Positions 11,784 to 38,356 of a stretch of 64,000 bases of DNA are shown here, in pieces. Position numbers and translations under genes: made by a program. Each line of letters opens with the position of its first letter. The stretch's first letter is position 1. Where the stretch lies: positions 36,958-100,957 of the forward strand of contig JALNLA010000005.1 of NCBI GenBank assembly GCA_023267975.1, in the 5' to 3' direction. This DNA is from Candidatus Terraquivivens ruidianensis (lineage in GTDB: Archaea; Thermoproteota; Nitrososphaeria_A; Caldarchaeales; Wolframiiraptoraceae). A model generated the notes under the pieces. The model had not been told where the DNA came from. It ran no database searches and was given only the letters and a program-made list of their open reading frames with translations.

Positions 11784-11805
11784 TTGTAACACGAAACCGT
11801 TACAA
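11784..11805. promoter_or_regulatory. Operator-like inverted repeat upstream of the ABC transporter
   Basis: TTGTAAC (11784-11790) and GTTACAA (11799-11805) are exact inverted copies with an 8-base spacer, about 80 bases before the binding-protein gene. AT-rich, TATA-like stretches (GCATATTAAT near 11808, AGTTTAAACATATT near 11851) follow. Spacing of one helical turn between half-site centres suits a dimeric regulator, perhaps the Tfx protein encoded at the other end of the locus. Confidence 0.4.
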
Positions 11806-11877
11806 ATGCATATTAATACCTAAGGTTGCCGGACAAAAAATGGTTACATAAGTTTAAACATATTGAGGTAAATCCCA

Positions 11878-12885
11878 GTGGGCATGAAGAAGGCTATCGT
11901 ACTAGTAGCGATAATATTCATCCTAATAATCTCCCTGTCCTTGACGTTCATGCTTGGAAAGTCCACCGCAAAAGAGTATGAAAACGTGAGCGTTGCTGTA
12001 GAATTCAACAATCATGCGGCAGCAGCATACATTGCAAAACATTTTGACTGGTTTAAAGAAAACGGGTTGAACATAACTACATTTAATTCGTACGTTACAG
12101 GCGTGGCTTTGGCGAATGCTTTGGCTAGAGGTGATGTAGATGCTGCTTATGTTTGCCTCGGCCCCGCACTCATCGCATACTCTAAAGGCGTAGACATAGT
12201 CATAGTGTCTGGAACGCATCTTTACGGATATTCTGTCGTTACGAGACGGGAAATAACGACTCCTGGAGATCTTGATGGTAAAAAAGTAGGCATAGTTGAG
12301 GCTGGCTCTAATACGGACATATTTTTCCAAATGGTTGTTAAAAAGTACGATCTGAAAAACATCGATGTTAGAAGGGGAAACCCACCACTCTTAACAACGC
12401 TACTCTGGACGGGACAAGTGGATGCTATAGTTGTACCAGAACACTGGGCTACTATGGCATCGTCAAAGGAGGGCTTTCATGTCTTGCTGAGAAGTCAAGA
12501 TGTTTGGAGCGGCATGCCGGGCAGCGTGTTAATCGTTAAGCGCGAACTCTTAGAAAAGAGGCCCGAGGTAGTGGAGAAGCTGGTAAAGATTACTGAAAAA
12601 GGTGTTAAGTTCATTGAAGAGAATAAAGAACAGGCTGCTGAGATCATCGTGGATGAGCTGGGTAAAGCCTCTCCAATGGGCGTAGAGCTTAAGCTGGTAG
12701 AGGAAGTGTCAAAAACACTTTCACCAAGCTTGATGCTAGACTCGATGAAAAATCTAAACTACACTTCAGAGTTGGATTCGGGCGCCATCAATCAATATAT
12801 AGAGTTCCTGTACGACCTGGGCTACATAGAGAATAAAATCGACGTTAACAAAATTGTTGGTGCGCATTTCTCCGCGAAGGGATAA
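11878..12885 (+). CDS. NitT/TauT-type ABC transporter substrate-binding protein
   Basis: Extracytoplasmic binding protein of the NMT1/SsuA-like fold. An N-terminal membrane anchor (about residues 5-27, AIVLVAIIFILIISLSLTFML) has no lipobox Cys. Family features follow: EFNNHAAAAYIAKHFDWFKENG, ALARGDVDAAYV, the TTPGDLDGKKVGI linker motif and GQVDAIVVPEHWA. The GTG at 11878 has GAGGT 9 bases before it; ATG 11884 would also work. The first gene of a four-gene run (binding protein, permease, ATPase, DUF364). Members of this fold bind nitrate, sulfonates, pyrimidine precursors and other small organics; the ligand here cannot be read off. Confidence 0.85.
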   Translation: MGMKKAIVLVAIIFILIISLSLTFMLGKSTAKEYENVSVAVEFNNHAAAAYIAKHFDWFKENGLNITTFNSYVTGVALANALARGDVDAAYVCLGPALIAYSKGVDIVIVSGTHLYGYSVVTRREITTPGDLDGKKVGIVEAGSNTDIFFQMVVKKYDLKNIDVRRGNPPLLTTLLWTGQVDAIVVPEHWATMASSKEGFHVLLRSQDVWSGMPGSVLIVKRELLEKRPEVVEKLVKITEKGVKFIEENKEQAAEIIVDELGKASPMGVELKLVEEVSKTLSPSLMLDSMKNLNYTSELDSGAINQYIEFLYDLGYIENKIDVNKIVGAHFSAKG

Positions 12886-12888
12886 CAT

Positions 12889-13644
12889 TTGGGGCTTGTC
12901 CAAAAATGTGAGAGGTTTAGTTGGCTGATACCGATAGCGGTCTTGTTGGTTCTTTGGGAGGTTGTGGCTAGAGCGCATTTATTCCCAGAGTACTTGTTTC
13001 CACCTTTCTCAAAAGTTGTCCTTACGGCTTTCCTCCTGGCTGAAAACGGAATATTATGGGAGCATCTTATGGCCAGCTTGCTAAGGGTCTTGGTAGGATT
13101 ACTAATAGGTTCAATGACCGGCGTAGGTTTAGGGGTATTGATGGGTTATAGAGAGAAAGTTTACAGGGCGCTCCATCCTATCTTTAGCCTTTTGATGCCT
13201 ATACCAGTCCTCGGCTGGCTGCCTCTATTCATACTTTGGGTTGGGATAAACGAGGCGTTGCCCATATTGCTCATATTCATCTGCTCATTCTTCCCACTGC
13301 TCTACAACACAATCTCTGGGATTAGAAGCGTTGATAGAGGCTACGTAGAGATTGCTAGGAGTCTTGGAGCCTCTGAGAGGAGAGCCTTCCTAGACGTAGT
13401 CATGCCATTAGCTCTGCAGAACATCATTACGGGTATGAGACTTGAGGCTGGGATGGCTTGGAGGACGATAGTGGCCGCTGAGATGATAGCGATACCCATG
13501 GGCATAGGCTCTCTCTTAATAAACTCGCAATACCTGCTGCGTATAGATGTGATCATGGTCTGTCTTGGAGTGCTAGCAACGATGTCCCTACTATTCGAGA
13601 AGATACTGCTATGGGTGGAGAGAAAGAGCATGAAATGGAGGTGA
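12889..13644 (+). CDS. NitT/TauT-type ABC transporter permease
   Basis: Integral membrane subunit with about six hydrophobic segments (for example LIPIAVLLVLWEVVARA near the N-terminus and ILLIFICSFFPLLYNT in the middle). The EAA loop that contacts the ATPase reads EIARSLGASERRAFLDVVMPLALQ. The 251-residue length is standard for SsuC/TauC-like permeases. It starts at TTG 12889, 3 bases after the binding-protein stop, and the ATPase follows after 4 bases, so the three form one transporter. Confidence 0.9.
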   Translation: MGLVQKCERFSWLIPIAVLLVLWEVVARAHLFPEYLFPPFSKVVLTAFLLAENGILWEHLMASLLRVLVGLLIGSMTGVGLGVLMGYREKVYRALHPIFSLLMPIPVLGWLPLFILWVGINEALPILLIFICSFFPLLYNTISGIRSVDRGYVEIARSLGASERRAFLDVVMPLALQNIITGMRLEAGMAWRTIVAAEMIAIPMGIGSLLINSQYLLRIDVIMVCLGVLATMSLLFEKILLWVERKSMKWR

Positions 13645-13648
13645 AGTT

Positions 13649-14698
13649 TTGACAAGCATACAGCTACAGAATGTAAGCAATGAATACGTACTAAAAAATG
13701 TGAATTTAACGATAGTGGATAAAACGCTTTTCATGTTAATTGGGCCATCTGGCGCAGGAAAAACAACGCTTCTCAAAGCGATCGCAGGCTTGGTAAAGTA
13801 CGCTGGCAGAATACTATTCGACGGCGAACCTCTGGATGGTGTGCCACCAGAGGGTAGAGGTGTAGGATACGTGCCGCAGGACTTTACACTCTTCCCACAC
13901 ATGACCGTTGAAGAAAACGTTGCATATGGGTTAAAGGTTAAAAATGTCCCGTACGTAGAGGTTGTTCGCAGAATAAAAGAGCTACTCGAAATAATGGGAA
14001 TATACGAACTACGTAAACGTTATCCTAGAGATCTGAGTGGTGGCGAGAAACAACGTGTGGCGATCGCACGCGCATTAGCCATAGACCCCAAAGTGTTGTT
14101 GCTGGATGAACCCTTAAGCAACCTGGACCCAAGGACGAGCAAGTATGTCAGAGAATGGCTCAAGTACATTATCAGGAAACTTTCCATAACAACAATTTGG
14201 GTAACGCACGACGTTAACGATGTTGAAGAATCGAATTGTAAAGTTGGCGTAATGCTTGATGGTGTACTCGAGCAAGTTGGGCATTATCACGAGATACTCT
14301 CCTCTCCAAGTAATGATAAGGTCTCAAAATTCCTAGGCTTAGCTAACGTATTTCCGTGTGATGTAGTTAGCTTTAGAGGACCTTTTGCAGAAGTGGATGT
14401 GAACGGTTTAAGGATCATGGTGCCATATGATGGAGGAAAAGTCAGCAAGATAGTAATCCACCCGCATGATGTAGTGGTCTCTAAAGAGAAATCGTGGGCG
14501 TTCGCTGTGAACAGCTATGAGGGGGTTTTAGAAGAAGTTGTGAATGAAAGATGTTCTGTAAACCTCAAGGTTAGGGTGAACGACGAAGTTGTGTTTAATG
14601 CAGAGCTTCCGGAGGACATATACAAGCTCACGAATTTAAAGACGGGTGAGAAAGTGTACTTAATGGTAAAGCCTAGGTCGATAAAGGTTATCTCTTAA
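13649..14698 (+). CDS. ABC transporter ATPase with a C-terminal TOBE-like domain
   Basis: Nucleotide-binding subunit for the adjacent permease. Walker A is GPSGAGKTT, the signature is LSGGEKQRVAIARAL, Walker B is VLLLDEPLSNLDP and the switch His is in WVTHD. Unlike the usual ~250-residue NitT/TauT ATPases it has about 110 more residues (from about 235). These contain VDVNGLRIMVPYDGGKVSKIVIHPHDVV and a final GEKVYLMVKPRSIKVI, the pattern of TOBE regulatory domains in ModC/WtpC/PotA-type ATPases. The start is TTG 13649. The mixture of a NitT/TauT permease with a TOBE-bearing ATPase is notable. Confidence 0.9.
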   Translation: MTSIQLQNVSNEYVLKNVNLTIVDKTLFMLIGPSGAGKTTLLKAIAGLVKYAGRILFDGEPLDGVPPEGRGVGYVPQDFTLFPHMTVEENVAYGLKVKNVPYVEVVRRIKELLEIMGIYELRKRYPRDLSGGEKQRVAIARALAIDPKVLLLDEPLSNLDPRTSKYVREWLKYIIRKLSITTIWVTHDVNDVEESNCKVGVMLDGVLEQVGHYHEILSSPSNDKVSKFLGLANVFPCDVVSFRGPFAEVDVNGLRIMVPYDGGKVSKIVIHPHDVVVSKEKSWAFAVNSYEGVLEEVVNERCSVNLKVRVNDEVVFNAELPEDIYKLTNLKTGEKVYLMVKPRSIKVIS

Positions 14699-14717
14699 CG
14701 GCGTTTGGAGATGGTGT

Positions 14718-15452
14718 ATGGACTATCTTCTAGAGCTTCGTGAAAGATGGTGGAGTAAAGTCGTCGAAAATCGTTTAGAAAGCAGAGAAATTATTGTGAA
14801 AGCAAGAGTTCTAGCGCCCGAGGAAGCTATTGGCGCCCCTGTCAGAAAAGAGTACCCATTACTGAAAGGAAAGGAAGTTATGATACAGGCAGAGATAGAT
14901 GGGGTTGTCGGTCAAGCATTTACAGACGAGCCAACAAACTTTCAGGGCACGTTGAAAGACCTGTATTGTCTCGATATGACAAGGAATTCTGGTAGAGCAT
15001 TGCTCGTAGCCGGGATAAACACCACCTATAGGCTCCTGGGACTCGTAGACGGGACTAGACATTGTAAAGATGATGGGCCAGAACTATGCGCAACTAAGAT
15101 CTCTGAAGCATTATACAATCTACATGGAGATGTAAAAACGTGTCTTATAGGTTTTCAGCCAGCCATACTACACAGCCTCTCAAGAAAATTTAGCAACGTC
15201 AGGGCAACCGATATGAATGATGAAAATATCGGTAGAAACTATCATGGTATCACCATAGAATCTTATTTGAAAAACCAAGAGGTGATCGAGTGGAGTGACC
15301 TAATCTTAGCCACGGGTTCAACGGTCGTGAACAACACGATACAGGATATATTAAGATGGGCTGGGAATAAGTCAACATACTTTTATGGAGTAACAATCGC
15401 CGCGCTGGCATACGAATTCAACCTTAAAAGACTATGCTTTAATTCTCTCTGA
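14718..15452 (+). CDS. DUF4213/DUF364 (PF04016) family protein
   Basis: Two-domain protein: an enolase-N-like first half (about residues 1-85) and a Rossmann-like second half. The hallmark segment LGLVDGTRHCKDDGPELCA (about residues 107-125) is present, and so is the later GSTVVNNTIQDIL loop that lines the cleft. A structure of a PF04016 member led others to propose heavy-metal chelation, but the function is unproven. At 244 residues it has normal length. It starts 19 bases after the ATPase and shares its strand, so it probably handles whatever the transporter brings in. Metal or metal-ligand handling is my inference. Confidence 0.8.
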   Translation: MDYLLELRERWWSKVVENRLESREIIVKARVLAPEEAIGAPVRKEYPLLKGKEVMIQAEIDGVVGQAFTDEPTNFQGTLKDLYCLDMTRNSGRALLVAGINTTYRLLGLVDGTRHCKDDGPELCATKISEALYNLHGDVKTCLIGFQPAILHSLSRKFSNVRATDMNDENIGRNYHGITIESYLKNQEVIEWSDLILATGSTVVNNTIQDILRWAGNKSTYFYGVTIAALAYEFNLKRLCFNSL

Positions 15453-15493
15453 AAAGGGAGCTTTTGTTATAGGTCTTTGAGAAAAATGGCAAC

Positions 15494-15505
15494 AGTTATA
15501 TAATA
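15494..15505 (+). promoter_or_regulatory. TATA-like element of the Tfx gene
   Basis: GTTATATAATAT lies 27-38 bases before the ATG at 15532, giving a leaderless or very short-leader transcript. A weak AAAAG/CTTTT hairpin at 15452-15465 lies just upstream and may end the ABC-DUF364 transcript. Confidence 0.5.
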
Positions 15506-15531
15506 TCCCAGGCAGCATATTAATCAAGATT

Positions 15532-15945
15532 ATGAAGAAACTCGTTAAACCTTTCTTGACCGAGAAGCAGATAAAAGCTCTGAGGCTAAGGATGAGTGGT
15601 ATGACGCAGGACCAAGTTGCAGAGGTATTAAAAATCAGTAGAGAGGCTGTTGCGAACCTCGAGAAAAGAGCTTACATGAATGTTATGAGGGCAAGGCAAA
15701 CATTGAAGGTGCTTGAGGGTATGGACCTTAGCGATGAGGTTATTATTTTGGCTGGTACGCCTCTAACGGATGTACCACGAAGGGTGCTTGACCAAGCAGA
15801 CATTCTTGGTATAAAGCTCGTGCTTGGGGCTGAAGCAATATATCAGCTGGTCAAGAGGAAAGCTAGAAAGAGAGGAGACCATCTGGCAGCACCGATAAGG
15901 ATAAAAATCTTCAACAATGGAAAGATAAAGTTAACGCCTTCTTAA
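15532..15945 (+). CDS. Tfx family DNA-binding protein
   Basis: Small archaeal regulator. Residues about 8-55 form a sigma-like helix-turn-helix (LTEKQIKALRLRMSGMTQDQ followed by VAEVLKISREAVANLEKRA), followed by the Tfx C-terminal domain (VIILAGTPLTDVPRRVLDQAD). At 137 residues it has family length. In Methanothermobacter, Tfx binds near the promoter of the molybdenum formylmethanofuran dehydrogenase operon, so the family has a molybdenum-linked precedent. Here it follows the ABC-DUF364 genes but has its own TATA element. The repeat at 11784-11805 or the element at 16078-16127 could be its site; neither is proven. Confidence 0.88.
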   Translation: MKKLVKPFLTEKQIKALRLRMSGMTQDQVAEVLKISREAVANLEKRAYMNVMRARQTLKVLEGMDLSDEVIILAGTPLTDVPRRVLDQADILGIKLVLGAEAIYQLVKRKARKRGDHLAAPIRIKIFNNGKIKLTPS

Positions 15946-37834: not shown

Positions 37835-38356
37835 TTAACTCTTCGCCATGTAAACTATATGCGGTAGCTCATCAACGAGAACATCGACGGCAGTTCTTGC
37901 CGCATCTGGTGAGCCGGGTATGCAAACAACCAATTTCTTCCTTGCGACACCCGCGATAGCCCTTGAAAGCATGGCCGCAGAGCCTACCTTCTGGTAGCTC
38001 AGTATTCGAAAAATTTCAGCAAAACCGTCCAACCTCTTTTCTAAGTATGGTTCCACAGCCTCTATTGTAGTATCTGACTTCGTTATCCCCGTTCCGCCGC
38101 AGAATATTATCACATCCACATCGCTTCTGTTAAGCAGAACGATCAACGCTGACCTTACTTGCTCGATACCATCGCCAATTAGCTCACGACATACGACTTC
38201 ATAGTCCTTAGCAAGCATACCGTTCATCAAGATGTCGCCAGACTCGTCGGTGTAGTCCTCACCTCTCATCTTTCTCTCGTACCTGGACGTGCTCACGGTC
38301 ACTATGGCCACGCTGACCTTCTTAGGCGCACTCATTCTGTGAACTTCATGCGACAT
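37835..38356 (-). CDS. moaB: Molybdenum cofactor biosynthesis protein MoaB
   Basis: MoaB/MogA-type enzyme that adenylylates molybdopterin before metal insertion. Signatures are IVTVSTSRYERKMRGEDYTDESG, FCGGTGITKSDTTIEAVEP, and RILSYQKVGSAAMLSRAIAGV. ATG 38356 overlaps the moaC stop (ATGA), so the two are translationally coupled; an in-frame ATG 21 bases further in is an alternative. About 173 residues, normal length. Confidence 0.94.
   Translation of the reverse strand: MSHEVHRMSAPKKVSVAIVTVSTSRYERKMRGEDYTDESGDILMNGMLAKDYEVVCRELIGDGIEQVRSALIVLLNRSDVDVIIFCGGTGITKSDTTIEAVEPYLEKRLDGFAEIFRILSYQKVGSAAMLSRAIAGVARKKLVVCIPGSPDAARTAVDVLVDELPHIVYMAKS

Follow-up and report, generated by a model that had tools for sequence, protein, structure and literature searches.

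Some prokaryotes that use Mo have no known transporter of molybdenum or tungsten (Mo/W) (13 of 249 archaea, 278 of 3683 bacteria), and further uptake systems have been proposed (PMC6147048); species of Geocrenenecus mostly lack any known Mo/W transporter, a 'consensus lack' (PMC9246946). Here, we describe a five-gene unit in a stretch of 64,000 nucleotides (the window, in which all coordinates below are positions) from contig JALNLA010000005.1 of Candidatus Terraquivivens ruidianensis. The unit combines a substrate-binding protein (SBP) and a permease of the NitT/TauT type with an ATPase resembling ModC and WtpC, a protein of the DUF364 family and a regulator of the Tfx family. The source genome (G000; our numbers for genomes, contigs and loci begin with G, C and L) is 1.3 Mb long, 97% complete and belongs to a hot-spring archaeon of the family Ca. 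Wolframiiraptoraceae, which shares its genus with Ca. Terraquivivens tikiterensis (G004).

The closest described systems are the ATP-binding cassette (ABC) importers WtpABC and ModABC, which have in common with this unit a ModC/WtpC-like ATPase, partners from the same DUF364 clade and from Tfx, and a neighbourhood of molybdenum cofactor (Moco) and molybdoenzyme genes. Their SBP, however, is of the SBP_bac_11/ModA/WtpA type, whereas that of the window is of the NMT1 (NitT/TauT) type and is accompanied by an SsuC/TauC-like permease. The tungstate importer TupABC probably handles the same class of solute, and a TupA-like system exists in the same genome (L083), but the SBP and permease of TupABC belong to different families, and the TupA-like genes have CGTTAT sites and a ModE-like regulator beside them, where the unit has GTTAC elements and Tfx. 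SsuABC, TauABC and NrtABCD share with the unit the fold and family of SBP and permease; the unit differs from them in its Mod/Wtp-like ATPase, in its Mo/W setting and in the SBP residues E42, C93, S216 and, mostly, H114.

The other two families have precedents of their own. The Tfx protein of Methanothermobacter (MTH0916) binds at the operon for the Mo formylmethanofuran dehydrogenase, and tungstate represses tfx (PMC3087415). EnfR (TON_1525), of the same TIGR00721 family, has a minimal site of 18 bp with a 5-N8-5 layout (PMC10570040). As for DUF364, genomic context ties its members to metal transporters, including vanadium and iron transport genes, and flavins or pterins have been speculated to be their targets (PMC2954201).

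By the tests run, the unit lies outside ModABC, WtpABC and TupABC. Computation established its gene set, its recurrence, the co-occurrence and co-decay of its genes, its placement among Moco and molybdoenzyme genes, and a series of conserved promoter elements and residues. The genomic evidence argues strongly that it functions as a Mo/W ABC importer with a NitT/TauT-type SBP and permease, a DUF364 partner and Tfx control. We put the probability that its role is Mo/W acquisition, with molybdate as the most likely solute in this host, at about three in four, judging from sequence. Our searches, which covered part of the literature, turned up no description of a Mo/W importer of the NitT type. 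The unit is a concrete candidate for uptake in metal-dependent archaea that lack a known transporter, and also in other archaea and some bacteria; if the reading is right, the DUF364 clade and Tfx, two poorly understood families, gain a joint role in Mo/W metabolism.

Genomic Setting and Recurrence

Searches with the DUF364 protein and the SBP covered 61 related genomes, and a further scan took in named genomes and 398 genomes of the phylum. The cassette was found in three Geocrenenecus genomes (L013, L014 and L015, with the DUF364 gene of L013 on the opposite strand, one gene away), in decayed form in a congener (L017), as a distant type-2 version in T. tikiterensis (L016) and as a transporter-Tfx version in L158. 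Cassettes of SBP, permease, ATPase and DUF364 genes are also present in L037, L046, L248, L254 and L255 and, truncated, in L024, L030, L034 and L050; the distribution takes in several archaeal lineages and Desulfobacteria. A preliminary description of the window, made from its sequence, had proposed to look for the five-gene set across archaea: the set does recur in L248, from a distant archaeal family, where it lies within a cluster for Mo-hydroxylase maturation.

The neighbours of these cassettes point in one direction. Those of Geocrenenecus lie in clusters with TorD, MobB, MobA, MoeA and ferredoxin genes, and in T. tikiterensis the order is MoeA-MobA-cmk-[cassette]-PIN-TorD-ferredoxin-MobB. 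In L158, the series XdhC-YqeB-canonical DUF364-MocA-MoeA-ModD-Tfx adjoins the transporter. In L248, a TrmO-like gene and MoeA come after Tfx-SBP-permease-ATPase-DUF364, and XdhC, CoxLMS, MocA and YqeB are nearby; in the Desulfobacterium locus L037 the cassette adjoins the gene for a Mo-hydroxylase subunit. Since the enzymes in these clusters differ, their common factor is the metal or the cofactor. The initial suggestion of import, handling and regulation of a metal, alone or in a complex, or of a cofactor precursor is supported, and the neighbours in the relatives narrow it to Mo/W. Molybdate is favoured because the cassette goes with TorD/MobA/MobB and Mo-hydroxylase genes; tungstate is a possible solute as well. 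As for the molybdopterin genes that the preliminary description placed elsewhere in the window, queries with Mo/W proteins from related loci recovered a single Moco-type gene there, a MoaB-like one (37859-38311).

Alternatively, the unit might import some other metal or oxyanion, such as vanadate, or else nitrate destined for a respiratory reductase. Nitrate and bicarbonate binders do occur in the NitT family, nitrate reductases are also served by TorD-like chaperones, and the published context of DUF364 includes vanadium and iron transport genes (PMC2954201). However, the conserved neighbours are Moco assembly genes together with several families of molybdo- and tungstoenzymes, and nitrogenase genes were not recognised in the neighbourhoods read, so that we regard this explanation as very unlikely.

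The Mo/W reading is further illustrated by the way in which the cassette is lost. In the congener G001, all five genes have been hit by frameshifts, stops or deletions, and the flanking genes are intact. TorD and an adjacent ferredoxin gene are present in the Moco clusters of G000, G004, G009 and G012 (TorD also in that of G014), all of which have intact cassettes, and are absent from the Moco clusters, to which the TorD search was confined, of G001, G002, G005 and G018, which have no intact cassette. The idea that the cassette tracks MobB was dropped, MobB being nearly universal among the relatives. The source genome itself carries, on contig C6, a relic of a type-2 DUF364 gene, which is 78% identical to its T. 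tikiterensis counterpart and lies at the position syntenic with the entire cassette of that species. A replacement of one cassette by the other therefore seems to have taken place.

The Transporter Proteins

The NitT/TauT character of the SBP and permease, put forward in the preliminary description, is confirmed by Pfam matches that are all above cut-off. The SBP matches NMT1_2 (PF13379, 86.1 bits, E 4.5e-24) and NMT1/THI5-like (PF09084, 72.7 bits, E 5.1e-20), and the permease matches BPD_transp_1 (PF00528, 88.9 bits, E 4.3e-25), with SaoP, TauC and SsuC as its nearest NCBIfam models and an identity of 66-80% to the permeases of the three Geocrenenecus genomes and of 51% to that of T. tikiterensis. 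The best-scoring families of the SBP are SsuA and TauA, with 151.3 bits against the SsuA model TIGR01728 (cut-off 163.5), and no match to the ModA/WtpA families (PF13531, TIGR01256, TIGR03730) was found at E<0.1 for Pfam or E<0.01 for NCBIfam. The AlphaFold2 model of the SBP has a mean confidence (pLDDT) of 90.4, and its top structural matches are again TauA and SsuA.

These scores could also reflect a conventional transporter for taurine, an organic sulfonate or a similar nutrient, with the Moco genes nearby by chance or through a molybdoenzyme that uses the substrate. The preference of the SBP for SsuA/TauA families and structures and the kinship of the permease to SaoP, TauC and SsuC speak for it. 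Every equivalog cut-off of those families is missed, however, and the cassette accompanies TorD/DMSO reductase, CoxLMS and XdhC genes, which have no common substrate. Moreover, the ATPase is Mod/Wtp-like, unlike those of sulfonate importers, and members of the DUF364 clade and Tfx are found with genuine Mod/Wtp operons as well. We consider an importer of this kind improbable.

The cassette SBPs are, in addition, a group of their own. The nine that were tested cluster together, apart from four other NitT SBPs (93/98 support). Residues E42, C93 and S216 are invariant in 11 cassette SBPs and different in the four others, and H114, likewise invariant in the 11, differs in three of the four. Since TauA and SsuA bind sulfonates, which are likewise tetrahedral, oxyanion binding by this SBP is plausible.

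The top model among the NCBIfam matches listed for the ATPase is tungstate_WtpC, over residues 7-348, with 302.6 bits (cut-off 440), against 137.9 bits for the TauB model, and its top solved relative is the ModC of Methanosarcina (3d31), aligned over residues 11-348, C-terminus included. These matches set the ATPase apart from those usual in NitT systems and bring it nearest to the Mod/Wtp branch. The TOBE-like C-terminus previously attributed to it stands in part: the extension is there and is included in the full-length alignment to ModC 3d31, but the TOBE match reaches 13.9 bits, under the cut-off of 22.3. The profile of the C-terminal part alone matched no structure, ModC included. The extension is kept in three relatives.

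The DUF364 Clade

The fourth gene had been assigned to DUF4213/DUF364. The DUF364 half of this assignment holds (PF04016, 48.2 bits, cut-off 23), but the N-terminal DUF4213 domain (PF13938) is unmatched; the canonical DUF364 protein of L158, unlike that of the window, matches both. The protein belongs to a distinct clade, in which H115, C116, C124 and C240 are kept in 46 of 46 members, gathered using other residues than these, and the set is absent from six canonical DUF364 proteins. The model of the window protein (pLDDT 94.2) finds its best PDB matches in PH1506 (3npg) and Dhaf4260 (3l5o). A structure search shows that these share its two-domain fold; the clade differs from them by its invariant HC-x7-C and C240, by the lack of a DUF4213 match and by an identity of about 12-17%. 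An invariant His/Cys set of this kind would suit metal handling.

In the Clostridia loci L027, L031, L032 and L033, genes of the same clade lie within ModA/ModB/ModC operons, the ModA being above the TIGR01256 cut-off. Since the clade is found both in NitT-type cassettes and in ModABC operons, it pairs with two unrelated types of transporter. Elsewhere, clade genes adjoin those for AOR and MoeA (L054), FmdB (L049) and CoxL (L025).

These associations bear on a further possibility, that the unit is a ThiXYZ-like importer of a thiamine or pterin precursor for cofactor synthesis. The SBP does match NMT1/THI5-like PF09084 and, distantly, the binder of a hydroxymethylpyrimidine precursor (3ix1), and the flavins or pterins speculated for DUF364 (PMC2954201) would fit. 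On the other hand, the window has no thiamine pyrophosphate riboswitch at gathering thresholds, thiamine genes were not recognised beside the cassettes read, and such an importer would not account for the fact that DUF364 and Tfx also adjoin ModABC and WtpABC. Its chances appear very small.

In two Methanolliviera loci (L048, L049) and one from Dehalococcoidia (L030), a clade DUF364 gene adjoins a canonical-type DUF364 gene in one operon, a pairing that suggests two distinct roles within the family.

Tfx and the Promoter Elements

The fifth gene is indeed a Tfx gene: its product scores 81.1 bits against TIGR00721 (cut-off 60.25) and 46.2 bits against TFX_C (cut-off 27), and 67 bits against the EnfR equivalog model, under the cut-off of 260. 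The preliminary description had counted an absence of co-occurrence of Tfx and DUF364 with the transporter as a refutation of its reading, which came through this check. Among the 61 relatives, Tfx is present in all six genomes with the transporter and in none of the other 55 (p 1.8e-8; by genus 3/3 versus 0/26, p 2.7e-4), where the six include G009 (Tfx on another contig), G001 (both broken) and G008 (a diverged SBP), and the 55 include T. tikiterensis, with its type-2 cassette and no detectable Tfx. In the 398 genomes of the phylum, Tfx is present in 8 of the 17 that have the DUF364 clade and in 32 of the remaining 381 (p 6.5e-5, without correction for relatedness).

At loci without the cassette, Tfx is the first gene of a WtpABC operon in L267 and adjoins ModA/ModB-like, MoeA-like and XdhC genes in L264, MoeA/MoaC/MoaA in L262 and CoxLMS in L263; four further contexts (L260, L261, L265, L266) are unrelated. 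Because of its co-occurrence with the transporter, its Mo/W neighbourhoods elsewhere and the Methanothermobacter precedent, Tfx is a probable Mo/W regulator. MTH0916, of the same TIGR00721 family, regulates the operon of a Mo enzyme; MTH0916 and EnfR have fmd or codh as targets, whereas the candidate target in the window is a transporter operon.

The promoter element GTTACRWANNNWTAW is present twice upstream of the SBP gene in the window and in L013, L014, L015 and L017, with the copies 42-44 bp apart in four of these five genomes and 35 bp apart in L017, the decayed one. A first-order Markov null gives even one copy per region p <= 0.001, and it never produced two. Because the regions are homologous, the doubling in five genomes represents conservation and not five independent events. 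The 1.3-Mb genome holds five copies in total, the three besides the promoter pair all being inside open reading frames, and GTTAC as the mark of a wider regulon was rejected for this reason.

The site at 11784-11805, singled out in the preliminary description for Tfx binding, contains a palindrome, and its GTTAC is kept in relatives, but a single palindrome is not beyond chance: by our estimate, a repeat with 7-bp arms is expected by chance in roughly such a length of DNA, and the palindrome was rejected as significant by itself, the weight resting on the conserved GTTAC. Its core, GTAAC-N8-GTTAC, matches the layout of the EnfR minimal site, and the candidate operator thus has the 5-N8-5 geometry described for EnfR (PMC10570040). 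One copy of the GTTAC element lies 24 bp upstream of the type-2 SBP gene of T. tikiterensis, in which no Tfx was detected, and the element is absent from the stretches read of the distant Tfx-linked units L158 and L248. A certain assignment of GTTAC to Tfx was dropped on these grounds, and Tfx is a candidate binder of the tandem elements. A TATA-like sequence before tfx, TTATATAATA, suggests a separate transcript for this gene.

Organization of the Unit

The SBP, permease, ATPase, DUF364 and Tfx genes are consecutive on the plus strand, with intergenic gaps of 3, 4, 19 and 79 bp (Table 1). All five open reading frames reported earlier at 11784-15945 are present on a single strand, and Pfam and NCBIfam scans confirmed the families of the SBP, permease, DUF364 and Tfx products.

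Table 1. Features of the unit and of its promoter region (window positions).
Feature	Coordinates	Strand	Basis and remarks
Inverted repeat TTGTAAC-N8-GTTACAA, candidate operator and dimer site, core GTAAC-N8-GTTAC	11784..11805		Read from sequence; left half not kept in all relatives
Promoter element GTTACRWANNNWTAW, first copy, GTTAC directly before TATA-like sequence	11799..11813	+	Conserved in L013, L014, L015, L017
Promoter element GTTACRWANNNWTAW, second copy, 44 bp downstream of first	11843..11857	+	Conserved in relatives
SBP, NitT/TauT (NMT1) type, N-terminal membrane anchor/signal	11878..12885	+	Pfam/NCBIfam, model; alternative start ATG 11884
ABC permease, NitT/TauT type (BPD_transp_1)	12889..13644	+	Pfam/NCBIfam
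ATP-binding subunit, nearest ModC/WtpC	13649..14698	+	ABC_tran, NCBIfam WtpC, PDB 3d31
ATPase C-terminal regulatory-type extension, TOBE-like below Pfam threshold	14345..14695	+	TOBE E 0.066, residues 288-346
DUF364-family protein, distinct clade, invariant H115, C116, C124, C240	14718..15452	+	PF04016, clade alignment, model
TATA-like sequence TTATATAATA before tfx	15497..15506	+	Read from sequence; same CAACAGTTATATAA in L017
Tfx-family DNA-binding regulator	15532..15945	+	TIGR00721, TFX_C; co-occurrence

A Possible Mode of Action

We infer the substrate, the trans-inhibition, the role of DUF364 and the binding of the elements by Tfx in the following scheme. The anchored NitT/TauT-type SBP would capture a tetrahedral metal oxyanion outside the cell, and the permease and the ModC/WtpC-like ATPase would import it. 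In this lineage, the C-terminal domain of the ATPase may respond to oxyanion inside the cell by stopping transport (trans-inhibition). The DUF364 protein would handle the imported metal in the cytoplasm, probably via its invariant His/Cys cluster, and Tfx would control the operon from the tandem GTTAC elements, which overlap its promoters. Molybdate, tungstate, a thiolated form and a chelate are the candidate forms of the solute.

A bolder version, which we hold to be doubtful, would place the unit in a fourth class of its own among Mo/W ABC importers, adapted to sulfidic hot springs, in which the roomier NitT-type pocket takes thiomolybdate, thiotungstate or a metal chelate in place of the bare oxyanion; the DUF364 clade would then be a new Mo/W-processing protein (for dethiolation, storage or delivery to MoeA) and Tfx a general archaeal Mo/W regulator.

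Several observations weigh against a Mo/W acquisition system. Among solved SBPs, the nearest ones have taurine, sulfonates and thiamin-type compounds as ligands, and T. tikiterensis (L016) has a type-2 ATPase of 246 aa with no C-terminal domain. A Mo/W gene is near only 19 of 34 DUF364-clade loci, some of them short, versus 2 of 20 control stretches, a count that is indicative only because some of the queries were proteins of these very loci. On contig C3, the source genome has another candidate route, a TupA-like operon accompanied by a ModE-like regulator. Finally, one Geocrenenecus genome (G018) has Moco and molybdo-/tungstoenzyme genes with neither the cassette nor a known transporter.

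Other Candidate Mo/W Routes in the Family

Two of the five Geocrenenecus genomes searched, G016 and G018, are without the cassette, and the other three have it. In the three that bear it, no Mod/Wtp/Tup binding protein is detectable by PF13531, in agreement with the 'consensus lack' of PMC9246946; this model is too broad for counting Mo/W transporters unless the loci are read. G016 and G018 have many AOR genes, and no Mod/Wtp/Tup or NitT-cassette binding protein was found in them; tungstoenzymes of the AOR type occur in all family members searched. In T. tikiterensis, a ModA-like gene (L074, G004 contig C15, 55480-56099) is split over two frames and is apparently decayed or misassembled.

The idea that the cassette is the sole Mo/W importer of the source genome was dropped in view of the TupA-like operon. 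Divergent from that operon, with CGTTAT repeats between the two, lies the gene for a regulator of 360 aa (L083, 1-1380) that joins a ModE-like DNA-binding domain to a C-terminal domain resembling periplasmic binding proteins. Contig C3 also holds, within 1-30000 (L167/L168), an unusual cluster of two DMSO-reductase-family genes with Fe-S subunits and lipoprotein-like genes. Interleaved with them are three similar genes, for products of 293-576 aa (HPPAIYDFRK...), that look like B12-type radical SAM proteins. This cluster may be the home of enzymes that need the imported metal.

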